From Corallococcus coralloides DSM 2259 (GTDB lineage Bacteria; Myxococcota; Myxococcia; Myxococcales; Myxococcaceae), in the NCBI RefSeq assembly GCF_000255295.1, contig NC_017030.1, forward strand, positions 5,146,001 through 5,210,000: DNA of 64,000 nt, given 5' to 3'. The translations under genes and the position numbers were made by a program. This document shows, in pieces, positions 41,678 through 54,211 of this stretch (positions within the stretch are counted from its first letter, which is position 1; each line of letters starts with the position of its first letter). A model generated the notes under the pieces. The model ran no database searches, was not told the origin of the DNA, and saw only the letters and a list, made by a program, of their open reading frames with translations.

Positions 41678-43021
41678 ATGCCTCGCTACGAGTTCACGGA
41701 AGGCAGCTCCAGCAAGTTCTGGGAGATCACCCTGGAGGGCACCACGCTGACCAAGCGCTGGGGCCGCATCGGCACCGACGGCCAGGAGAAGGTCGAGGAG
41801 TTCGACTCCAAGGCCGAGGCGAAGAAGGCCTACGACTCGCAGATCCGCGAAAAGGAAGGCAAGGGCTACACGCTCGCCGAAGGCGGGGACAGCGACGGCG
41901 GAGAGGCCACCGCCGAGTCCGCCGTCAACCCGGACCTGGAGGCCGCCATCCTCGCGAAGCCCGACGACGTGAAGGGCTACCTCGCGTACGCCGAATGGCT
42001 CAAGGGCGAGGGTGACCCGCGCGCCGAGCTGATCCTCCTCCAGCACTCCGCGCTGGATGCGCCCGCGGCCACGCGCAAGAAGGTGGCGAAGCTCATCGAG
42101 GACCACGCCAACGAGCTGCTGGGCGAGTCGCTGATGGAGGCCGTCTCCGACGAGACCCTCAAGCTGGAGTGGCACCTGGGCTTCATCCGCGAGGCCCGCC
42201 TGGGTCAGGTGGACTACGACTCCACGGCGGACATCCCGGACCTGCTGGCCGAGCTGCTGGCCCATCCCTCCGCGCGGTTCCTGAGCCGTCTGACCCTGGG
42301 CATGGCCAGCTTCGACGGCGAGAACGATTACGACGAAACGCTGGCGGTGCTCGCGAAGGCGAAGCCCGCGCCGCCGCTGCGCTCGCTGTTCATTGGCGAC
42401 TTCGAGTTCCCGGACGAGACGGAGATCTCCTGGACGCAGGTGGGCGACCTCAAGCCGCTCTACAAGGTCTACCCCCAGCTCCAGGAGCTGCGCGTGCGCG
42501 GCGGTGAGATCGGGTTCGGGAAGATCGATCTGCCGGAGCTGCGCTCGTTCACCGTGGAGACCGGTGGCCTCCACGAGGGCGCGGTGAAGGAGATCGTGAA
42601 GGCGAAGTGGCCGAAGCTGGAGTCGCTGGAGATCTGGTTCGGCCAGGAGAACTACGGCGCGAGCGGCGGGGTGAAGGAGCTCAAGCCCCTGCTCGACGCG
42701 GAGGGCGTGCCGGCCCTGCGCAAGCTGGGGCTGCGCAACTCGGAGTTCACCGACGAGCTGTGCGCGGCGCTGCCCAAGTCGAAGATCCTCGCTCAAATCG
42801 AAGAGCTGGATCTGTCCATGGGCACGATGAGCGACGCGGGTGCGGACACGCTGGCCCAGAACGCCAAGGCCTTCGCGCACCTCAAGACGCTGGACGTCAC
42901 CCAGAACTTCCTCACGAAGGCGGGGCAGAAGACCGTGGCCAACGTCGCGAAGTCCGTGGCGAGTGGCAACCAGCGCACGCCCTACGACGAAGAATCGCGC
43001 TACGCCGCCGTGGGCGAGTAG
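41678..43021 (+). CDS. STM4015-like leucine-rich-repeat protein with WGR domain
   Basis: A 447-residue protein. Residues 1-70 are a WGR domain (KFWEITLEGTTLTKRWGRIG), a fold found in some DNA-damage proteins and myxobacterial repeat proteins. Residues ~85-140 match a short repeat-companion domain (LAYAEWLKGEGDPRAELILL). Residues ~170-430 are leucine-rich repeats with a recurrent pattern: IGDFEFPDETEISW, then LQELRVRGGEIGF, LRSFTVETGGL, LESLEIWFGQENYG, LRKLGLRNSEFTDE, LDLSMGTMSDAGA. This pattern and the direct neighbour (STM4014-type gene nine bases downstream) fit the STM4015 member of the STM4011-STM4015 set. The WGR part may be lineage-specific. The start ATG 41678 follows AAAGGGACGCGCG. 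The function is unknown; LRRs usually bind peptides or proteins. Confidence 0.82.
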   Translation: MPRYEFTEGSSSKFWEITLEGTTLTKRWGRIGTDGQEKVEEFDSKAEAKKAYDSQIREKEGKGYTLAEGGDSDGGEATAESAVNPDLEAAILAKPDDVKGYLAYAEWLKGEGDPRAELILLQHSALDAPAATRKKVAKLIEDHANELLGESLMEAVSDETLKLEWHLGFIREARLGQVDYDSTADIPDLLAELLAHPSARFLSRLTLGMASFDGENDYDETLAVLAKAKPAPPLRSLFIGDFEFPDETEISWTQVGDLKPLYKVYPQLQELRVRGGEIGFGKIDLPELRSFTVETGGLHEGAVKEIVKAKWPKLESLEIWFGQENYGASGGVKELKPLLDAEGVPALRKLGLRNSEFTDELCAALPKSKILAQIEELDLSMGTMSDAGADTLAQNAKAFAHLKTLDVTQNFLTKAGQKTVANVAKSVASGNQRTPYDEESRYAAVGE

Positions 43022-43030
43022 TCCGTCTCC

Positions 43031-44155
43031 ATGCCGCCGTTCCTGATCATCGGCAACCCCGGGAACCGGCGCGTCACGCTCTTTCAGGAGGCCCTGGTCC
43101 GCGCCGGGCTTCCTCCCGCGCACGTGGTGGCGTGGGAGACGGTGGCCCGCGCTCCCGACGTCCTCCTGGAGCTGCCCGACACGGAGCGCCTCGTCCGCAT
43201 CGACGCGGCAGGGGAGGAAGCGGCCGTGGAGCGGGCCTTCCTCCAGCGAGGCTTCACGGATGCGCTCGGCGCGGGCTGCGACACCGTGACGCCCGAGCAA
43301 CTGGATGCACTGCCGGATGAACACGGCCGCGTGTTGTGCCCCCGGCAGCACCACCTGGGCTTTCTTCGCGTTCTGGAGGACCTGACCCGGCGGTTCGCGC
43401 AGCGTCCCCACTGGCGCGTGCTGTCCGCTCCGGGCGCCATCGCGGACCTGTTCGACAAGCGGACCACTTCGCGCCGGTACGCGGGCCTGGGCATCCCCGT
43501 GCCGCCGTTCCTGGACGTGGCCCCGGGCACCCCGCCGGAGGCCCTGCGCCACGCTCTGCGCGAGGCGGGCTTCCGCGAGGCGTTCGTGAAGCTGTCCTGC
43601 GGTTCGTCCGCGTCGTGCCTCGCCGTGTACCGGCCGGGTCTGGCGCAAGGCTCGCTGCTCACCAGCCTGCACCGGGGCAGCACCGGCTGGTTCAACTCCC
43701 TCAAGGTGCGCCGCGTAACGGACGCGCGGGAGGTGGACGCGGTGCTGTCCTTCCTCCTGCGCGAAGGCTCTCAGGTGGAGGAGGCCCGGCCCAAGGCGCG
43801 GCTGGGTGGGGACATGTTCGACTGCCGCGTCCTCGCGGTGCGCGGCGAGCCCGTCTTCACCGTGGTGCGCCAGAGCCGCCTGCCCATCACCAACCTGCAC
43901 CTGGGCGGCTACCGGGGAGACCTGGACGCCTTCCACGCGGCGGTGCCACCCGGCGAACTGGAGGCCGCGATGGAGAGCTGCCGCGCCGTGGCCCGTGCGC
44001 ACGACTGCCTCCACGTGGGCATCGACCTGATGTTCGAGGACTTCTTCCACGGCCACCGTGTGCTGGAGGCGAACGCCTTCGGGGACCTGCTCCCCGGCCT
44101 CACGCGCGATGGCCTGTCCGTCTACGACTGGGAGATCCGCGAAGCGCTGCGCTGA
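43031..44155 (+). CDS. STM4014-like ATP-grasp-type protein
   Basis: A 374-residue cytoplasmic protein with the layout of an ATP-grasp ligase. Features are an N-terminal Rossmann-like segment (FLIIGNPGNRRVTLFQEALV), a middle domain with FDKRTTSRRYAGLGIPVPPF then FVKLSCGSSASCLAVYR, and the Mg-ATP end HVGIDLMFEDFFHGHRVLEANAFGDL, in which D-x-M-F-E and LEANAFGD supply the typical acidic metal ligands. It matches the STM4014 family on sequence pattern and on context next to the LRR and radical SAM genes. ATP-grasp enzymes usually join an amine and a carboxylate; the substrate here is unknown. Its last 34 bases overlap the end of the converging radical SAM gene. Confidence 0.82.
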   Translation: MPPFLIIGNPGNRRVTLFQEALVRAGLPPAHVVAWETVARAPDVLLELPDTERLVRIDAAGEEAAVERAFLQRGFTDALGAGCDTVTPEQLDALPDEHGRVLCPRQHHLGFLRVLEDLTRRFAQRPHWRVLSAPGAIADLFDKRTTSRRYAGLGIPVPPFLDVAPGTPPEALRHALREAGFREAFVKLSCGSSASCLAVYRPGLAQGSLLTSLHRGSTGWFNSLKVRRVTDAREVDAVLSFLLREGSQVEEARPKARLGGDMFDCRVLAVRGEPVFTVVRQSRLPITNLHLGGYRGDLDAFHAAVPPGELEAAMESCRAVARAHDCLHVGIDLMFEDFFHGHRVLEANAFGDLLPGLTRDGLSVYDWEIREALR

Positions 44156-45021
44156 GCCCCGCCCGTCCACAGCCGCGTCGCTGGCACGCGCTCCAGCAGC
44201 CCGGAGCCGAACACGCGATCCAGCTCCAGGTACTCCAGGTGCACGTAGCCGATGTGACACCCGCACGTGTCCTTCGAGCACGGACGCGGCTTCAACGCCG
44301 CGTCGAAGTCCGGCGCGTACACGTTGCCCAGCGGCTCCTTGATGAAGTGGCACCGGTACGCGGTGCCATCACCGTCCACCGACAGCACGGACTCGCCGCC
44401 ACGGCAGGCACGGCCCAGGCTGGGGTGGCGCGTGTTGTTCACCGGGAAGAGCGGGTCGATGCGGGTGAAGCGCTCCACGTCCTCGGGCGTGTACGCGTCC
44501 AGGCCGTCCTTCACCGCGTTGATCCACAGGTACGTATCCTCGGGCAGCTCGCGGCGCAGGGCCTCCGCCTCGTCCGCGAAGCGCCGGAAGCCCACCATGC
44601 CCGCGCTGTGCCGCACGCCTTGCTCCGACAACCGCTGGCACTGCGCGAGGAAGCGCGAGCGCTTCATCCACTCCGGATGGTACGTGGCCCAGATTCCCAG
44701 CTTCTCCGTGCGGCAGTCCGTCAGCCAGTCCAGCCGGCAGGAGAGGTTCGTCTGCACCGCCGCGCGCTCCACGTGGGGCAGATGCGTGAGGCGCGCCAGG
44801 GCCTGCTGGTACCAGGGCCAGATGAGCGCCTCGCCCCACGGCGTGAAGAACACGGACACGGTGTCCTGCGTGCGCGACTCCACCCACTGGAGGAACCGCT
44901 CCAGGTCCGCGCGGTCCTTCGTGAGCTCCTCCTCGCTCTGCTTCCACTTGCCGAAGGGGCAGTACTCGCAGCCGTAGTTACAGCCGGACAGCGGGCCCCG
45001 GTAGAGCACGGTGAGCTTCAT
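44122..45021 (-). CDS. STM4011-like radical SAM protein
   Basis: A 299-residue protein of the radical SAM superfamily, which uses a [4Fe-4S] cluster to make a deoxyadenosyl radical. The cluster motif C-x3-C-x2-C is at C14, C18 and C21 (CNYGCEYC). The C-terminal third has further Cys (RACRGGE, YRCHF, KPRPCSKDTCGCHIGY), suggesting one or two auxiliary clusters, as in SPASM-like peptide-modifying enzymes. It matches the STM4011 family by pattern and by its neighbours. Start ATG 45021 overlaps the end of the second radical SAM gene by four bases (ATGA), so the two are coupled. Its end overlaps the converging ATP-grasp-like gene by 34 bases. Confidence 0.88.
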   Translation of the reverse strand: MKLTVLYRGPLSGCNYGCEYCPFGKWKQSEEELTKDRADLERFLQWVESRTQDTVSVFFTPWGEALIWPWYQQALARLTHLPHVERAAVQTNLSCRLDWLTDCRTEKLGIWATYHPEWMKRSRFLAQCQRLSEQGVRHSAGMVGFRRFADEAEALRRELPEDTYLWINAVKDGLDAYTPEDVERFTRIDPLFPVNNTRHPSLGRACRGGESVLSVDGDGTAYRCHFIKEPLGNVYAPDFDAALKPRPCSKDTCGCHIGYVHLEYLELDRVFGSGLLERVPATRLWTGGAQRSASRISQS

Positions 45022-46331
45022 CGCCAGGCGTACTCCGCCTTGCGCGCGCGCACGGCCTCGGAGTCCAGCCAGGGGCCAATCAAGTCGGAGCGCTCCACGC
45101 CCGCCGGAGTGAGCTGGAACACGCCGTCCACGTCGCGCGCCAGTCCGTGCGCCTCCAGCTCCGCGAGCATCGGGAAGTCCGCCTTCGCGTCCGTGCCGAA
45201 GCGCTGGCGGTACACACCCGGGTCCACGCCCTCCGCCAGAAGTGACAGCACCAGGTGCCGGTGGCGCTGCTCGGCCGCGTCCAGCACGAAGCCGTAGCGG
45301 ACTTCACCGAAGGAGGCCGTGTCCCGTTCGCTGTACGCCTGGATGATGCCGCGCACCTCGCGCGAGGCCACCGCGTACTCGGACGAGTAGTGCACCGCGC
45401 CCGTGTACGAACGCGCCCCCACGCCCAGGCCCACCATGCCGTCCTCCTGGCAGCGGTACACCGCGCCGCGAGCAGCAGGCGCATGCGCCGCTCGGAACAT
45501 CCGCATGGACACCTGCGTGTAGCCGCGCGACAGGAGGAAGTCCCGGCCAGTCCGGTAGAGCGACAGCCGCAGGTCGTCCCACGCGCGCGACTTCTTGCCC
45601 AGGAAGGTGAGGGGCCGCACGTAGAGCGGGTAGAGGTACAGCTCCTCCGGCGCGTACCGCAGCGCCGCCTCCAGCGAGAGGAGGAACGTCTCCACCGTCT
45701 GGCCCTCGATGCCGTAGATGAGGTCCAGGTTGAGCGTGGGGAAGCCCGCGCCGCGCAGCAGGTCCAGTGTGGCCTCCACCTGCGCCGTCTGCTGCGGCCG
45801 CTTCACCGCGGCGACCTCCGACTCCAGGAAGCTCTGCACGCCCATGCTCACCCGGTCCACGCCCCGGGCCTTCAGCACCGCGACCTTGCCCGCGTCCACC
45901 GTCTCCGGCGACACCTCCACGGACATGGGCACGTCGCGAGGGTCCACGCCCAGCTCCGCCGCCAGGTCGAACACCGTCTCCAGCCCCGCGACGTCCAGCA
46001 GGGTGGGGGTGCCACCGCCAATCGCGGCCCGCGCGAACGTGGCCGGCCCCAGCGCTTCCTTCACCCGGCGGGCCTCGCGCTTCAGCGCGGCGAGCCACCC
46101 CTCAACGACGTCCTCCTTCGGGCCCGCGGCGGTGAAGAGGTTGCAGAACCCGCAGCGCATCTCGCAGAAGGGCACGTGCAGGTAGAGGAACAGCGCGTCC
46201 CGCCGCTCCTTCGCCCAGACGTCCTCCAGCGGCAGTGCGGGCGTGAGCGGGCGGTAGGCCGTCTTGTGCGGGTAGCCGTAGAGGTACGCCACGTACGGCG
46301 TCCCTTCGAGCATCGACTCCAGGCGCGTCAT
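45018..46331 (-). CDS. STM4012-like radical SAM protein (HemN-like)
   Basis: A 437-residue radical SAM protein. The cluster motif is at C56, C60, C63 in LYLHVPFCEMRCGFCNLF, the HemN/HemW-type form with the upstream HVPFC. Further HemN-like features are GGGTPTLL, VSMGVQSF and NLDLIYGIEGQTVETF, and a C-terminal winged-helix-like part. It is not ordinary HemN/HemW given its context and the altered second motif, and fits the STM4012 family. I choose ATG 46331 because it overlaps the stop of the upstream hydrolase by four bases (ATGA). This enzyme lies between the hydrolase and the STM4011-like gene, all coupled. Confidence 0.88.
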   Translation of the reverse strand: MTRLESMLEGTPYVAYLYGYPHKTAYRPLTPALPLEDVWAKERRDALFLYLHVPFCEMRCGFCNLFTAAGPKEDVVEGWLAALKREARRVKEALGPATFARAAIGGGTPTLLDVAGLETVFDLAAELGVDPRDVPMSVEVSPETVDAGKVAVLKARGVDRVSMGVQSFLESEVAAVKRPQQTAQVEATLDLLRGAGFPTLNLDLIYGIEGQTVETFLLSLEAALRYAPEELYLYPLYVRPLTFLGKKSRAWDDLRLSLYRTGRDFLLSRGYTQVSMRMFRAAHAPAARGAVYRCQEDGMVGLGVGARSYTGAVHYSSEYAVASREVRGIIQAYSERDTASFGEVRYGFVLDAAEQRHRHLVLSLLAEGVDPGVYRQRFGTDAKADFPMLAELEAHGLARDVDGVFQLTPAGVERSDLIGPWLDSEAVRARKAEYAWR

Positions 46332-47140
46332 GGCGCCGAGTCTACCGGCAGCACGAACTCGCCATAGGGCACCGTCCACACCACCGGGTGCCCCAGCCGG
46401 TGACCCGTGTAGCCGTCCTCGCCGTACGCCGTGCCATGGTCCGAGCACACGATGCAGAACGCCGGGCCGCGCCTGCGCAGCGCCTGGAACAGGGGTGGCA
46501 GCTGACGGTCCACGTACGCCAGCGCCGCCGCGTGCGTCGCCTTGGAGTCCTCCGTGGCCCCGGGGACGTAGTGGCGGTTGGGCTGGTGCAGCGCGGAGAC
46601 GTTGATGAACAGGAACACCCGCTGCTCCCGGGGCAATGCCCCCAGGATCTTCACTGCGAGTGATGCCTGATTTTCCGTGGATCGCGGGTCGGTGACGCCC
46701 AGCTCCGGGGCCCAGTGCGCCTCGGAGAAGAGGCCCGGGAGGACGCGGCCCAGGGGGTTCCGCTGGTTGAAGAACCCGGTCCCGCCAATGCACACCGTGT
46801 GATAGCCGCGCCCGGCCAGACCGGTGACGAGGTCCGGCGCGTCCAGCACGCAGGTGCCGGGGCCTGTCGTCTCGCTGCCCTCGAAGCGCAGGGCGAACGG
46901 GCGAGCGTGCCGCCCCGGAGTGACGGGGGTGGGGAGGAAGCCCGCGAAGAAGGCCTGGTGCGCGGCGTAGGTGAAGCTCGCCGGGGTGTGCCGTTCCTCC
47001 CACCGGCCGCCGGGTAGCAGCGCGGCCAGGGTGGGGGTGCGGCCTGCTTCCAGCTCCTCCCGGGCCACGTCGTAGCGGAGCGTGTCCAGCGTGAGGAAGA
47101 GCAGGTCGTGCGTGCCGACCATTGCATTCAGGTCATGCAT
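46328..47140 (-). CDS. STM4013-like hydrolase of the alkaline phosphatase superfamily
   Basis: A 270-residue protein with the alkaline phosphatase/sulfatase fold in short form. The N-terminal metal motif LTLDTLRYD gives D19 and probably D24. A Thr57 in TPASFTYAAHQAFFAG is placed as the likely nucleophile. The C-terminal motif CSDHGTAYGEDGYTGH gives D234, H235 and H247. It would hydrolyse a phosphate or sulfate ester, or transfer such a group. It matches the STM4013/SEN3800 family. There is no signal peptide, so it acts in the cytoplasm with the two coupled radical SAM enzymes. ATG 47140 or 47122 (MVGTHDL) may be the start. It is the first gene of the minus-strand trio and lies just past a hairpin. 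Confidence 0.88.
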   Translation of the reverse strand: MHDLNAMVGTHDLLFLTLDTLRYDVAREELEAGRTPTLAALLPGGRWEERHTPASFTYAAHQAFFAGFLPTPVTPGRHARPFALRFEGSETTGPGTCVLDAPDLVTGLAGRGYHTVCIGGTGFFNQRNPLGRVLPGLFSEAHWAPELGVTDPRSTENQASLAVKILGALPREQRVFLFINVSALHQPNRHYVPGATEDSKATHAAALAYVDRQLPPLFQALRRRGPAFCIVCSDHGTAYGEDGYTGHRLGHPVVWTVPYGEFVLPVDSAP

Positions 47141-51173: not shown

Positions 51174-52634
51174 TCAGTGCCCGGCGGGCTTCGCGGGGGC
51201 CTGCTGGACCACGGGCTTCGAGGCGCGCTGGAGGACGGGCAGGGACGGGCTCAGCGTGCCCAGGTAGAGCCGGCCGTGGAAGCCCGTCTCGCCCGGCGCG
51301 TCGAAGAGGGCCACCTTGCGCGGCGTGTTGGGCTCCTGGCGCGCGTCCGCCGCCGGGTTGATGCCGTGTACGTCGCAGTCCACCTGCTGCCAGACGTTGA
51401 AGCGGCAGGCGTAGTGGGCGCCACGAGCGAAGCCCACGTCCAGCGCCCGCACGGGCGAGGAGGGCAGGGCGGTGATGAGGCGGTGGCCCATGGGTTCGAA
51501 CTTCGAATCCCAGTTCACGCCGCCGGTGCGCACGTGCACGTCGCCCGCGAGCACCAGCATCCACGCGTCCGGGTTCTCCTTGCGGAAGGCGAGGAGGTTC
51601 GCCGCCATCTCCTCCTCGCGCGCGTTGCCCGCCGCCTGCTTGGAGTCGAACGCCACCACCGACACGGCGTGGCCCTGGGCCCTCAAGCGCCGCGCGGTCT
51701 CCAGCAGGTGGATGACGCCCGCGCTGCTGCGGCCGTCCTGGTCCACGCGGCGGAAGAAGTCGCTCAGCACCAGCAGCCGCTCCAGATCCGCGTCCGTGCC
51801 GGCGCTGGTGAGGTACTCGTCCAGCGCGCCCTGATCCACGGACGGCACGGACAGGGCCAGCGCCACCGGCAGCTTCTTCGCCGTGGCGTCGCAGAGCATC
51901 CGAGCGGCGGCGTCCGGCAGCTCGCGCGTGCCCATGGGGTCCGCGACCAGCACGGTGCCGCCCTGCGTGAGCAGCGGGTCCACGCCCTCCACGGGGTCAC
52001 CGCAGCGGGGAGCGGCTTCGGGCGTCTCCGGGGTCCAGCCCGTGACCTTCACGTCGCGCACGGGGATGGAGGCCTTGCCTCCGACCAGCTCCAGGGACGG
52101 GACCATCTCCAGGCGCATGAGCAGCTTGCGCTCCTGGGGCAGGTCGCGGAAGCCGCGGCGCAGCTTGAAGCCCTCCATCTGCGGGACGCCTTCGAAGGTC
52201 TCGTGGGCGAACACCTCGCGGAAGTGGTTGTAGTAGTGGTCGTTGGCCCGCTGGCTGCCCGGCTCGGGCGTCTGCTGCGTGACGGCGTCGTCCGCTTCCC
52301 GGTACTGGAGGCGGAAGATGCGCACGATGGACTGGCGCGGGCCGACCTCTTCGGGTCGCACGAGGTAGCGTTCGAAGGTGCGGTTGCCGCGCACGTTCAC
52401 GCCGATCTCCCAGGACTGGGAGTACAGCTCATGCGTGGTGTTGTTCTCGAAGATGTCCAGGCGCTGCTCTTCCAGCAGGCGGCGCGCGACGAACATCGCC
52501 TCGTCCAGGGGAACCAGGTACACGCGCTCCACGGTGGGGATGGGCTCCGTGTCCAGCGGATCCCCATCCAATCCGCGCGAGATGCTCGTGCACCCCGTCA
52601 TGCACAGAAGCCCCAGCGTCCAGTGCCACCGCAT
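51174..52634 (-). CDS. ChaN/EreA-like lipoprotein (paralogue A)
   Basis: A 486-residue protein with a lipoprotein signal (WTLGLLCMTGC), starting at ATG 52634 (MRWHWTLGLL), which has GGGGCAGG just upstream. The C-terminal half resembles ChaN/EreA-type haem-binding or erythromycin-esterase-like folds: ELPDAAARMLCDATAKKLPV, then FDSKQAAGNAREEEMAANLL, and WMLVLAGDVHVRTGG, matching the aG(D/N)xHxR signature that usually carries the functional His. The N-terminal half is family-specific. It shares the whole layout with the next gene (for example VYLVPLDEAMFVARRLLEEQ against VYLVPLDEALFTMRRVFEEQ), so the pair came from tandem duplication. Confidence 0.8.
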   Translation of the reverse strand: MRWHWTLGLLCMTGCTSISRGLDGDPLDTEPIPTVERVYLVPLDEAMFVARRLLEEQRLDIFENNTTHELYSQSWEIGVNVRGNRTFERYLVRPEEVGPRQSIVRIFRLQYREADDAVTQQTPEPGSQRANDHYYNHFREVFAHETFEGVPQMEGFKLRRGFRDLPQERKLLMRLEMVPSLELVGGKASIPVRDVKVTGWTPETPEAAPRCGDPVEGVDPLLTQGGTVLVADPMGTRELPDAAARMLCDATAKKLPVALALSVPSVDQGALDEYLTSAGTDADLERLLVLSDFFRRVDQDGRSSAGVIHLLETARRLRAQGHAVSVVAFDSKQAAGNAREEEMAANLLAFRKENPDAWMLVLAGDVHVRTGGVNWDSKFEPMGHRLITALPSSPVRALDVGFARGAHYACRFNVWQQVDCDVHGINPAADARQEPNTPRKVALFDAPGETGFHGRLYLGTLSPSLPVLQRASKPVVQQAPAKPAGH

Positions 52635-52732
52635 GGTCCTGCCCCCTTTCGTGGAAGGGGACGGCCCAAGGCAGGCGCCATCCCCGGACACCTGAGTCTA
52701 GCACTCCGGGTGCGGGAATTGCGCTACTGGTA

Positions 52733-54211
52733 TCAGTGCTCCGCTTCCGCGGGCTTCGTGCCGCCATCCTGCTGCTGCTGGGCCACGGGCGGGGGGGTGC
52801 GCTGGATGACCGGCGGTGAGGCGTTGAGCGCTCCCACCCAGAGCCGGCCGTGGAAGCCCGTGTCGCTGGGCCTGTCGAAGAGGGCCACCTTGCGCGGCGT
52901 GCCCGGCTCCTGGCGCAGTTCCGCGGTCGGGCTGAGCGCGAAGACGTTGCAGTCCACCTGCTCCCAGACGTTGAACCGGCAGGAGAACTGCGAGCCTCGC
53001 GTGAAGCCCACCTCCAGCGCCTTCACCGGCGACGCGGGCAGCGCCTTCGTCAGCCGCCAGCCCAGCGGCTCGAAGTCCTTGTTCCAGCTCACCGGCTTCG
53101 TGCGCACGTGCACGTCACCCGCGAGCGCCAGCAGCCACGTGTCCGGATTCGCCTGGCGGTACGCGATGAGGTTCTTCGCCATCTCCGCCTCGCGCGCGTT
53201 GCCGGAGGCGCTGTTCGAATCGAACGCCAGCACCGTCACCGCGTTCCCCTGCGCGCGCAGCCTTCGGGCCTGCTCGATGAGGCGGAGCAGGGCGCCGCTG
53301 CTGCGGCCGTCCTGATACACGCGGCGCCAGAAGGAGCTCACCACCAGCAGCCGCTCCAGGTCCGGGCCGTGGCCCGCGCTGGCCAGGTACTCGTCCAGCG
53401 CGCCCTGGTCCTCCGACGGCATGGACAACGCCAGCGCCACCGACAGCTTCTTCTCCACCGCGTCGCAGAGCATCCGCGTGGCGATCTCCGGCAGCTCGCG
53501 CGTGCCCAGCGGATCTCCCACCAGCACCGTGTGCCCGGCCGTGAGCAGCGGCTCCACGCCCTGCAGCGGCTCACCGCACTTCACCGGCGGCGGCTGGGCC
53601 GTGTCGTCATCCCAGCCCTCCACCTGCACGGCGCGCACGGGCGCGTTCGTCCTGCCACCCACCAGCTCCAGCGACGGCACCATCTCCAGCCTCGCCAGCA
53701 GCTTGCGCTCCAGGGGCAGGTCGCGCGTGCCGCGCACCATCTTGAAGCCCTCCATGTCCGGCACGCCGTCGAACGTGAAGCGCTCGAACGTCTTCCGGGA
53801 GAGGTACTTCTCCTCGTCCTGGATGCGCTCGTTGAGCCACTTGGGCTTCACCTCGATGTTCGTGTCCTGCTCGCGGTAGCTCAGGCGGAAGACGCGGATG
53901 ACCGACTGGCGCGGCCCCAGCGACGCGCCCTTCACGAAGTAGCGCTCGTAGGTGCGGTTGCCGGGGAGGTTCATCCCGGGCTCGTGCGCGGACGTGTAGA
54001 GCTCGTGGTGGTCCGCGCGCTCGAAGACGTCGTAGCGCTGCTCCTCGAAGACGCGCCGCATGGTGAAGAGGGCCTCGTCCAGCGGGACCAGGTACACCGT
54101 CTCCTCGGTGGGGACCTCCTCGTCCTCCGGCGTGGTGTCATGGAGGTCCTTCGTCAGGCTCGCGCAGCCGCCGACGCACAACGACAGTCCCAGCAACCAG
54201 TGCAACCGCAT
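52733..54211 (-). CDS. ChaN/EreA-like lipoprotein (paralogue B)
   Basis: A 492-residue lipoprotein (LLGLSLCVGGC) that duplicates its neighbour. Shared stretches include ERKLLARLEMVPSLELVGG, GTRELPEIATRMLCDAVEKK, FDSNSASGNAREAEMAKNLI and WLLALAGDVHVRTK, with the GDVHVR motif retained. The last ~20 residues are Gln/Pro-rich and differ from paralogue A. Both genes point the same way with 98 bases between, and a TAGACT sequence occurs upstream of each (54301-54306 here, 52695-52700 for paralogue A), so each may have its own promoter. The function is unknown; the family includes iron- or haem-related and esterase-type members. Confidence 0.8.
   Translation of the reverse strand: MRLHWLLGLSLCVGGCASLTKDLHDTTPEDEEVPTEETVYLVPLDEALFTMRRVFEEQRYDVFERADHHELYTSAHEPGMNLPGNRTYERYFVKGASLGPRQSVIRVFRLSYREQDTNIEVKPKWLNERIQDEEKYLSRKTFERFTFDGVPDMEGFKMVRGTRDLPLERKLLARLEMVPSLELVGGRTNAPVRAVQVEGWDDDTAQPPPVKCGEPLQGVEPLLTAGHTVLVGDPLGTRELPEIATRMLCDAVEKKLSVALALSMPSEDQGALDEYLASAGHGPDLERLLVVSSFWRRVYQDGRSSGALLRLIEQARRLRAQGNAVTVLAFDSNSASGNAREAEMAKNLIAYRQANPDTWLLALAGDVHVRTKPVSWNKDFEPLGWRLTKALPASPVKALEVGFTRGSQFSCRFNVWEQVDCNVFALSPTAELRQEPGTPRKVALFDRPSDTGFHGRLWVGALNASPPVIQRTPPPVAQQQQDGGTKPAEAEH

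Follow-up and report, generated by a model that had tools for sequence, protein, structure and literature searches.

A conserved C-terminal tail of STM4015-type leucine-rich repeat proteins and its association with the STM4011–STM4014 enzymes suggest a protein C-terminus modification system

The amino-group carrier protein (AmCP) is a globular carrier with a C-terminal extension ending in Glu, and pearlins (TglA/TmoA) are made on the C-terminal end of a ribosomally produced carrier, the tmo pathway including a radical S-adenosylmethionine (SAM) enzyme (both according to PMC9303977). RimK adds Glu to the C-terminus of ribosomal protein S6 (reference cited in PMC8939145). Here, the STM4011–STM4015 gene set of Corallococcus coralloides DSM 2259 is compared with these systems. 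The analysed stretch, referred to as the window, comprises 64,000 nucleotides (bases 5146001–5210000) of a single-contig genome of 10.08 Mb and encodes a leucine-rich repeat (LRR) protein (STM4015), an ATP-grasp-like ligase (STM4014), two radical SAM enzymes (STM4011 and STM4012) and a hydrolase (STM4013). The gene set was already known by name; new are the tail at the C-terminus of the LRR protein, the link between this tail and the enzymes, and the assignment of the ligase. No function for STM4011–STM4015 was found in the literature that could be searched, where STM4011–STM4015/SEN3800 appeared as table mentions only, and no system with such an enzyme combination was described in the best-ranked titles and abstract beginnings; most subscription journals lay outside both searches.

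The STM4015 proteins share an acidic stretch followed by R-Y-x-x-x-x-E at the exact C-terminus, which in the window reads DEESRYAAVGE directly before the stop codon. The tail was analysed in 109 matches that scored 200 bits or more and ended with a stop codon, the window copy and seven plasmid copies, dereplicated to 75 sequences (global alignment score of the final 200 residues below 0.7); matches below 200 bits or lacking a stop codon were excluded. The terminal Glu was present in 70 of the 75 copies compared with 82 of 1303 other genes called in loci L041–L140, a background that includes unreliable calls in high-GC Streptomyces and Myxococcus neighbours. Arg at position -7 and Tyr or Phe at position -6 were each found in 63 copies, and the residues from -20 to -8 were 37% acidic (12% in the background). 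When counted per locus, at least one Glu-ended copy was detected in 65 of the 66 loci having a complete-ended STM4015 match, the single miss (L111, 731 aa, 143 bits) being a WGR protein as judged by eye. Divergent tails also ended in Glu, such as those of Salmonella (YMNAMYTE), Paenibacillus (RYPSLTE), Bacteroides (YYPMITE), Deinococcus (RYVALGE and RFVALGE) and Methylobacterium (RSIAVSE). No conserved Ser, Thr or Lys was found in the last 12 positions of the 75 tails, the commonest being Ser at -2 (22 copies). A stricter stop-anchored pattern matched the window genome once, at the STM4015 stop codon; the backward control also matched once, so that chance is not negligible for single pattern matches. 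In some tailed proteins, HEAT-like repeats precede the LRR part (L172:2-2275 and, as a weak match, L169:132-2246).

The association of the tail with the enzymes was evaluated by scanning a stop-anchored DNA pattern for R-Y-x-x-x-x-E over 118 related genomes, 38 of them enzyme-positive and 80 enzyme-negative. The scan returned 71 matches in the positive genomes (backward control 18) and nine in the negative ones (control 29). Matches ending in TGG, which is not a stop codon, were removed (one each in G114, G103, G091, G076, G022, G050, G041 and G062), after which the pattern was found in 36 of the 38 enzyme-positive genomes (69 matches) versus two of the 80 negative ones (three matches). The two positive genomes without the pattern, G020 and G056, still have Glu-ended tails (RYSVLGE and RYTSIAE), which the codons of the pattern miss. 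Among the negative genomes, the match in G031 ends a frame beside a WGR-like open reading frame (ORF; 67 bits, WGR part only) outside any LRR-type stretch and was not counted as STM4015, and one match in G062 (contig C318), unrelated to STM4015, was treated as chance rather than as a further substrate. Non-STM4015 substrates were also considered for matches in G059 and G052 (metallopeptidase-like by eye) and on contig C338 of G060, which lacked the acidic stretch and were likewise treated as chance.

Proteins similar to STM4015 (E up to 1e-10) were detected in the 38 enzyme-positive genomes and in G022, G032, G053, G062, G068 and G090. Every STM4015-like place away from the contig stretch of a set was retrieved. 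Among the STM4015-like ORFs obtained in this way that had a stop codon and scored at least 100 bits, the tail R-[YF]-x-x-x-x-E was present in 33 of 42 from positive genomes and in none of the six from negative genomes; at 200 bits, the corresponding numbers were 30 of 31 and 0 of 3. In draft genomes, a copy outside the set means one located on another contig, and such copies in the fragmentary G017 may belong to its set. The genome of G061 consists of one contig, on which about 1.76 Mb separate the set from a second copy bearing the tail. In G060, a draft genome bin of about 740 contigs, 13 ORFs scoring 100 bits or more have the tail and, like one further broken copy, are not on the contig that holds the set. 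The two best paralogues of the negative genomes end with GRTVAVVD and GRIVASLDES before the stop codon. Judged by their sequence, the ends of the best LRR copies in the negative genomes G062 and G068, which are congeneric with three positive genomes, look like eroded tails.

The STM4014 protein had no match to an ATP-grasp family in Pfam, and the ATP-grasp label was assigned because of its structure model (AlphaFold2; predicted local distance difference test score (pLDDT) 95.9, predicted template modelling score 0.93). On this model, STM4014 is confidently predicted to have an ATP-grasp fold nearest to the ArgX, LysX and RimK ligases, which bears out the ATP-grasp-like protein proposed in the preliminary description. 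Foldseek ranked ArgX with LysW first and PsnB second, followed by RimK, D-Ala-D-Ala ligase and LysX. In VIA-align, ArgX (3vpb) was found with Z of 23.3 and a root-mean-square deviation of 2.8 over 270 aligned residues, RimK with 22.8 and LysX with 22.3, and the range over all ArgX/RimK/LysX structures was 21.9–23.3, a small margin above other enzymes. A comparison of the STM4014 profile with PDB sequences gave Thermus thermophilus LysX entries as the best, albeit weak, matches (E 4e-4), with RimK at 0.014. Residues K143, K187, D264, R266, R280, D332, E346 and N348 were invariant in 53 sequences, consistent with ATP-grasp. Matches of the single STM4014 sequence to an AlkB homologue in the PDB were too short and were discarded. 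STM4014 matches under the curated cut-off, obtained for 88 of the 118 genomes at E up to 0.001 and for 5 of 14 controls, looked like general ATP-grasp proteins and were not counted. No virus-borne STM4014 copy was confirmed in viral_contigs using a single STM4014 protein as the query, which reaches close relatives only.

The STM4011 model had a pLDDT of 90.1, falling to 65–71 only over residues 11–30, around the radical SAM Cys loop. All eight Cys residues were invariant in 54 sequences and form CxxxCxxC, the auxiliary motif CX12GX4C and a further group. The SPASM/twitch motif consists of CxxxCxxC plus CX9-15GX4C, and both parts are present in STM4011; the window protein had no Pfam SPASM match and scored 23.4 for Radical_SAM, below the gathering score of 29.5. 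Foldseek gave SkfB and anSME as the best matches, and PqqE, SkfB, SuiB and EpeE were among the structural neighbours in VIA-align. As modelled, STM4011 resembles SPASM/twitch radical SAM enzymes. A viperin identity was rejected as viperin models matched weakly and viperin-type structures were neighbours of STM4011, not its best matches. A role in anti-phage defence was also set aside, the PADLOC matches being weak and partial.

STM4012 scored over the cut-offs of PF04055 and PF06969 (HemN_C) and below the HemW and HemN equivalog cut-offs, and its CxxxCxxC motif was kept in more than 93% of 80 aligned rows. In two genomes, another STM4012-type gene with a lower score, also over the cut-off, was observed away from the set (G044:C1:7716023-7717315 and G058:C68:34284-35573). 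STM4013 was barely above the gathering score of Pfam Sulfatase (25.2 versus 25). Residues D19, T57, D234, H235 and H247 were invariant in 45 sequences, and the profile matched weakly to sulfatases and nucleotide pyrophosphatases/phosphodiesterases (NPPs), with T57 falling on the NPP Thr stretch, whose Thr at this position we take to be the NPP nucleophile. The motif of formylglycine sulfatases is C/S-x-P-x-R. A formylglycine sulfatase matured by an anSME-type STM4011 was considered and rejected, as this motif is absent and the invariant T57 of F-T-x-x-x-H stands in its place.

Established here are the tail, its location at the very end of the protein, the co-occurrence of tail and enzymes, and the predicted folds of STM4014 and STM4011. 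On this basis, we consider it probable that the set is a system for modification of protein C-termini, with STM4015-type LRR proteins as its substrates. An action of the enzymes on or through the tail is held with good confidence, and ligation to the C-terminal Glu is judged the likelier course of the chemistry, although less firmly. The folded LRR domain would present an acidic, probably flexible stretch ending with R-Y-x-x-x-x-E, and STM4014 would activate the terminal Glu carboxylate with ATP and couple an amine-bearing group to it. Ligation was preferred as the first step because the Glu is located at the exact C-terminus, the approach to it is acidic and the ligase is nearest to the enzymes whose target is the C-terminal Glu of LysW or S6. 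From the chemistry of their families, the SPASM/twitch-like STM4011 and the HemN-like STM4012 might carry out radical chemistry on the tail end or the attached group, and STM4013, with Thr at the nucleophile position, might remove or transfer a phosphate- or sulfate-type group.

A single enzyme set may, in some genomes, serve many tail-sharing LRR proteins encoded elsewhere, and such a number of substrates would favour, as a weak argument, a lasting modification over release. The LRR protein had been proposed as a recognition partner or substrate carrier. The second role gained support, whereas the first, taken by itself, is less convincing, because the likely site is the LRR tail and many tail-bearing LRR proteins exist in some genomes. 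More tentatively, and with somewhat more doubt than belief, the ligase and the two radical SAM enzymes could put the same unusual group, genome-wide, on the C-termini of a repertoire of LRR proteins, some with WGR or HEAT-like parts. If so, diverse binding domains would have in common a single modified tail that might be redox-active or serve as an effector.

A number of observations weigh against this explanation. The terminal Glu is missing in 5 of the 75 copies, all from loci that also encode a Glu-ended copy, and R-Y is not universal, as the tails of Salmonella and some Planctomycetota-type tails retain little except Glu. Nine of the 42 homologues outside the set in enzyme-positive genomes, mostly low-scoring, are untailed. 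The enzyme-less G062 has a frame-broken STM4015-like LRR remnant ending with RYVAVGE; its enzymes could have been recently lost or, since the genome is 89% complete, could be absent from the assembly. The STM4015 models contain tail columns, which introduces a slight recruitment bias toward tailed copies, and the genomes are related, so that Fisher p-values for the tail and the enzymes are not independent and overstate the evidence. Glutathione synthetase (Z 21.3), D-Ala-D-Lac ligase and inositol-phosphate kinase (20.8) were close behind the nearest neighbours of STM4014, hence fold similarity leaves its substrate unfixed. For STM4011, BlsE led the VIA-align list at 16.5, practically level with SkfB at 16.4, and anSME (13.7) did not exceed viperin-type enzymes (13.8) or MoaA (14.8). 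BlsE, MoaA and viperin-type enzymes act on small molecules, and their presence among the neighbours means that the fold alone does not fix peptide chemistry. Finally, no release peptidase is present among the five genes, the neighbouring genes not having been scanned for one.

Conservation of the tail and its association with the enzymes would be explained equally well if the tail were a docking motif, with the enzymes assembling on LRR scaffolds and the true substrate being some other protein or a small molecule. Scaffolding is a typical role of repeat domains. However, such docking is considered unlikely: the most conserved residue is the very last one before the stop codon, a position that docking does not require, and the closest relatives of the partner ligase in structure are enzymes acting on a C-terminal Glu. 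Cross-linking or oxidation of the tail Tyr and Glu by the radical SAM enzymes, in a manner similar to pyrroloquinoline quinone (PQQ) or mycofactocin formation and with the ligase acting later or elsewhere, would agree with Tyr and Glu being the most conserved reactive tail residues besides Arg and with the PqqE, SkfB, SuiB and EpeE neighbours of STM4011. Such chemistry is quite improbable, as neither Tyr nor Phe occupies position -6 in 12 of the 75 copies and Salmonella has Asn there, while Glu persists.

The formation of a sulfated product from 3'-phosphoadenosine 5'-phosphosulfate (PAPS) was suggested by genes for sulfate activation near STM4013 in 9 of the 16 myxobacterial genomes with the neighbourhood of the set fetched. 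The routes vary and include a Sat-adenosine 5'-phosphosulfate (APS) kinase fusion, CysD/N/C and a lone APS kinase (examples at L055:11489-13156, L048:4547-7725 and L049:6389-6886). In one Streptomyces, a TauE/SafE exporter gene overlaps the STM4011 end. The Sat, APS kinase and CysN matches were confined to loci with Myxococcota-type titles among the 100 searched, and all 15 genomes tested had at least two APS kinase matches, so that the nearby copy may be housekeeping. TauE was found in 1 of 106 loci, its own source, and was rejected as a conserved partner. A PAPS-dependent pathway is thus regarded as very unlikely. Graspetide-like macrocyclisation of the tail by STM4014, which its acidity and the second Foldseek rank of the ligase PsnB might suggest, is considered highly improbable, as the last 12 positions of the tails offer no conserved Ser, Thr or Lys acceptor.

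The coordinates of the features are presented in Table 1. The five ORFs were found at the positions given in the preliminary description, and direct reading of the sequence agreed with it on the ATGA overlaps coupling STM4013/STM4012 and STM4012/STM4011. The ORF coordinates likewise agreed on the 34-base tail-to-tail overlap of STM4014 and STM4011 (44122–44155).

Table 1. Features of the STM4011–STM4015 gene set in the window (positions counted from the first base of the window)
Feature	Position	Strand	Basis
STM4015-type LRR protein, 447 aa, proposed substrate	41678..43021	+	NF038076 E 1.4e-70, below cut-off
WGR domain, residues 6-67 of the STM4015-type protein	41693..41878	+	PF05406 E 4.1e-19
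TIGR02996 domain, residues 85-124 of the STM4015-type protein	41930..42049	+	NCBIfam E 4e-11
RYAAVGE tail at the STM4015 C-terminus, with the stop codon; acidic residues directly upstream	42998..43021	+	Conservation in 75 dereplicated homologues
STM4014 ATP-grasp ligase (predicted), 374 aa	43031..44155	+	NF038074 362 bits; structure model; nearest ArgX/RimK/LysX
STM4014 D332...E346-x-N348, putative ATP-grasp metal ligands	44024..44074	+	Invariant, 53 sequences
STM4011, radical SAM enzyme (299 aa) carrying an auxiliary Cys motif	44122..45021	-	NF038073 408 bits
STM4011 CxxxCxxC radical SAM motif (C14, C18, C21)	44959..44982	-	Invariant, 54 sequences
STM4011 auxiliary Cys: C206-x12-G-x4-C224, C248-x4-C253-x-C255	44257..44406	-	Invariant, 54 sequences, 59 with plasmid rows
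STM4012 HemN/HemW-like radical SAM protein, 437 aa	45018..46331	-	NF006067 593 bits; PF04055, HemN_C over cut-off
STM4013 alkaline-phosphatase-superfamily hydrolase, 270 aa	46328..47140	-	NF038075 426 bits
STM4013 T57, candidate nucleophile	46970..46972	-	Invariant, 45 sequences; aligns with SLTFPNH of a solved NPP

The family names stood for the four enzymes, all of which passed the curated NCBIfam cut-offs (STM4014, 362 versus 175 bits; STM4011, 408 versus 200; STM4012, 593 versus 380; STM4013, 426 versus 250). The name STM4015 held in part, as the protein reached 237.6 bits for NF038076 with the cut-off of 275, a value passed by none of the 118 relatives, and the match covered residues 182–447 only, up to the last position of the model. 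By sequence comparison, it is a clear homologue located in the same gene set, with no formal family membership assigned. Its WGR domain and conserved tail had been unmentioned in the preliminary description. The window STM4011 protein is 98% identical to its counterparts in Corallococcus sp. AS-1-6 and C. interemptor.

Among the 118 relatives, STM4011, STM4012 and STM4013 were each over the cut-off in 38 genomes and STM4014 in 37, the genome lists being identical except for G017 (78% complete), which lacks STM4014. Such joint presence indicates that the set is more than chance; with one protein of the five below its cut-off and co-occurrence near complete, neither two members outside the families nor a rarity of the combination was observed. 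The STM4011 profile scan of species genomes revealed at least 583 confirmed relatives, of which the best 80 were kept, so the breadth given here is a lower bound. By record titles, these 80 and the plasmid records were of Myxococcota, Cyanobacteria, Chloroflexota, Planctomycetota, Actinomycetota, Deinococcota, Bacillota, Bacteroidota and Pseudomonadota types. Together with six plasmid stretches, they gave 86 broad loci, 61 of which contained all five families (own profiles, six frames). Many of the incomplete loci, although not all, were short or cut contigs (L083, L099 and L118 have about 20 kb each). Presence was counted from six-frame searches because gene calls were unreliable in high-GC neighbours; an apparent CysD N-terminal extension and a fused STM4013 N-terminus were recognized as gene-calling artefacts, an antisense reading of neighbouring genes. 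The commonest gene order, with all genes on the same strand, was 4015-4014-4013-4012-4011 (33 loci after merging of tandem copies), and the split, convergent order of the window was the second (12 loci).

The convergent STM4014/STM4011 junction is an insertion spot in relatives (L041:9086-14244, L042:7504-11369 and L044:9108-11921), the inserts being unrelated genes that on visual inspection resemble a nuclease pair or pieces of transposases. The Bacteroides plasmid copy (L143:7600-7965) kept STM4015, STM4014 and STM4011, and STM4013 and STM4012 were not found there, with a STM4012-like end fragment persisting by eye. Haloacid dehalogenase (HAD) hydrolases of differing subfamilies were coupled to STM4013 or STM4011 (L042:15064-15747, L141:8834-9568 and L143:7965-9530). 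HAD phosphatases adjoin STM4013 in a group of Myxococcus/Pyxidicoccus type and at three loci from outside the myxobacteria (L091, L129 and L132), and STM4011 in Salmonella; by eye, one forms the C-terminal part of the Bacteroides STM4011 protein. A DUF6745 (PF20530) protein and a conserved small protein, about 100 aa long and containing TGHSH and VHxEH-like motifs, were located near the set in 20 of the 86 broad loci (L144:8884-10181, L145:2316-3641, L146:1424-3046 and 17 others), of Chloroflexi, Planctomycetes, Streptomyces, Deinococcus and Methylobacterium types. The pair was found in none of the 20 stretches of relatives (L041–L060), and the DUF6745 search in relatives gave no match; its control was equally negative, so that this result does not demonstrate absence. 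Elsewhere in the window (51174–54211, minus strand), two adjoining genes look like tandem paralogues, a 154-aa piece of a relative matching them with 94% and 65% identity.

The candidate substrate end gives this orphan five-gene set a concrete target testable by mass spectrometry and points to a possibly wide class of modified bacterial repeat proteins. The proposed C-terminus modification resembles the LysW/ArgX/LysX system in having an ATP-grasp ligase of closely similar fold and a candidate substrate with a C-terminal Glu. STM4015 matched WGR, TIGR02996 and STM4015/LRR models and no LysW model, and the system differs in that the proposed carrier is an LRR protein, often multicopy, accompanied by two radical SAM enzymes; in the amino-group carrier pathway, LysZ/Y/J/K-type enzymes act downstream. 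RimK is of the same fold class as STM4014, whereas the proposed substrate here is not S6 and the ligase belongs to a multi-enzyme set. Among the systems for ribosomally synthesized and post-translationally modified peptides (RiPPs), to whose precursors the STM4015 tail appears similar in sequence, the SPASM/twitch maturases (SkfB, anSME, PqqE and SuiB) share their fold and the CX12GX4C auxiliary motif with STM4011, although the proposed substrate here is a full-size LRR protein. Graspetides (PsnB) likewise combine an ATP-grasp enzyme, close to STM4014 in Foldseek, with a ribosomal precursor, whereas the STM4015 tail is without their kind of conserved acceptors. Pearlins, as described in PMC9303977, share the C-terminal carrier chemistry and, in the tmo pathway, a radical SAM enzyme, and differ in using aminoacyl-tRNA-dependent PEARLs instead of ATP-grasp and in having a protease in the cluster.

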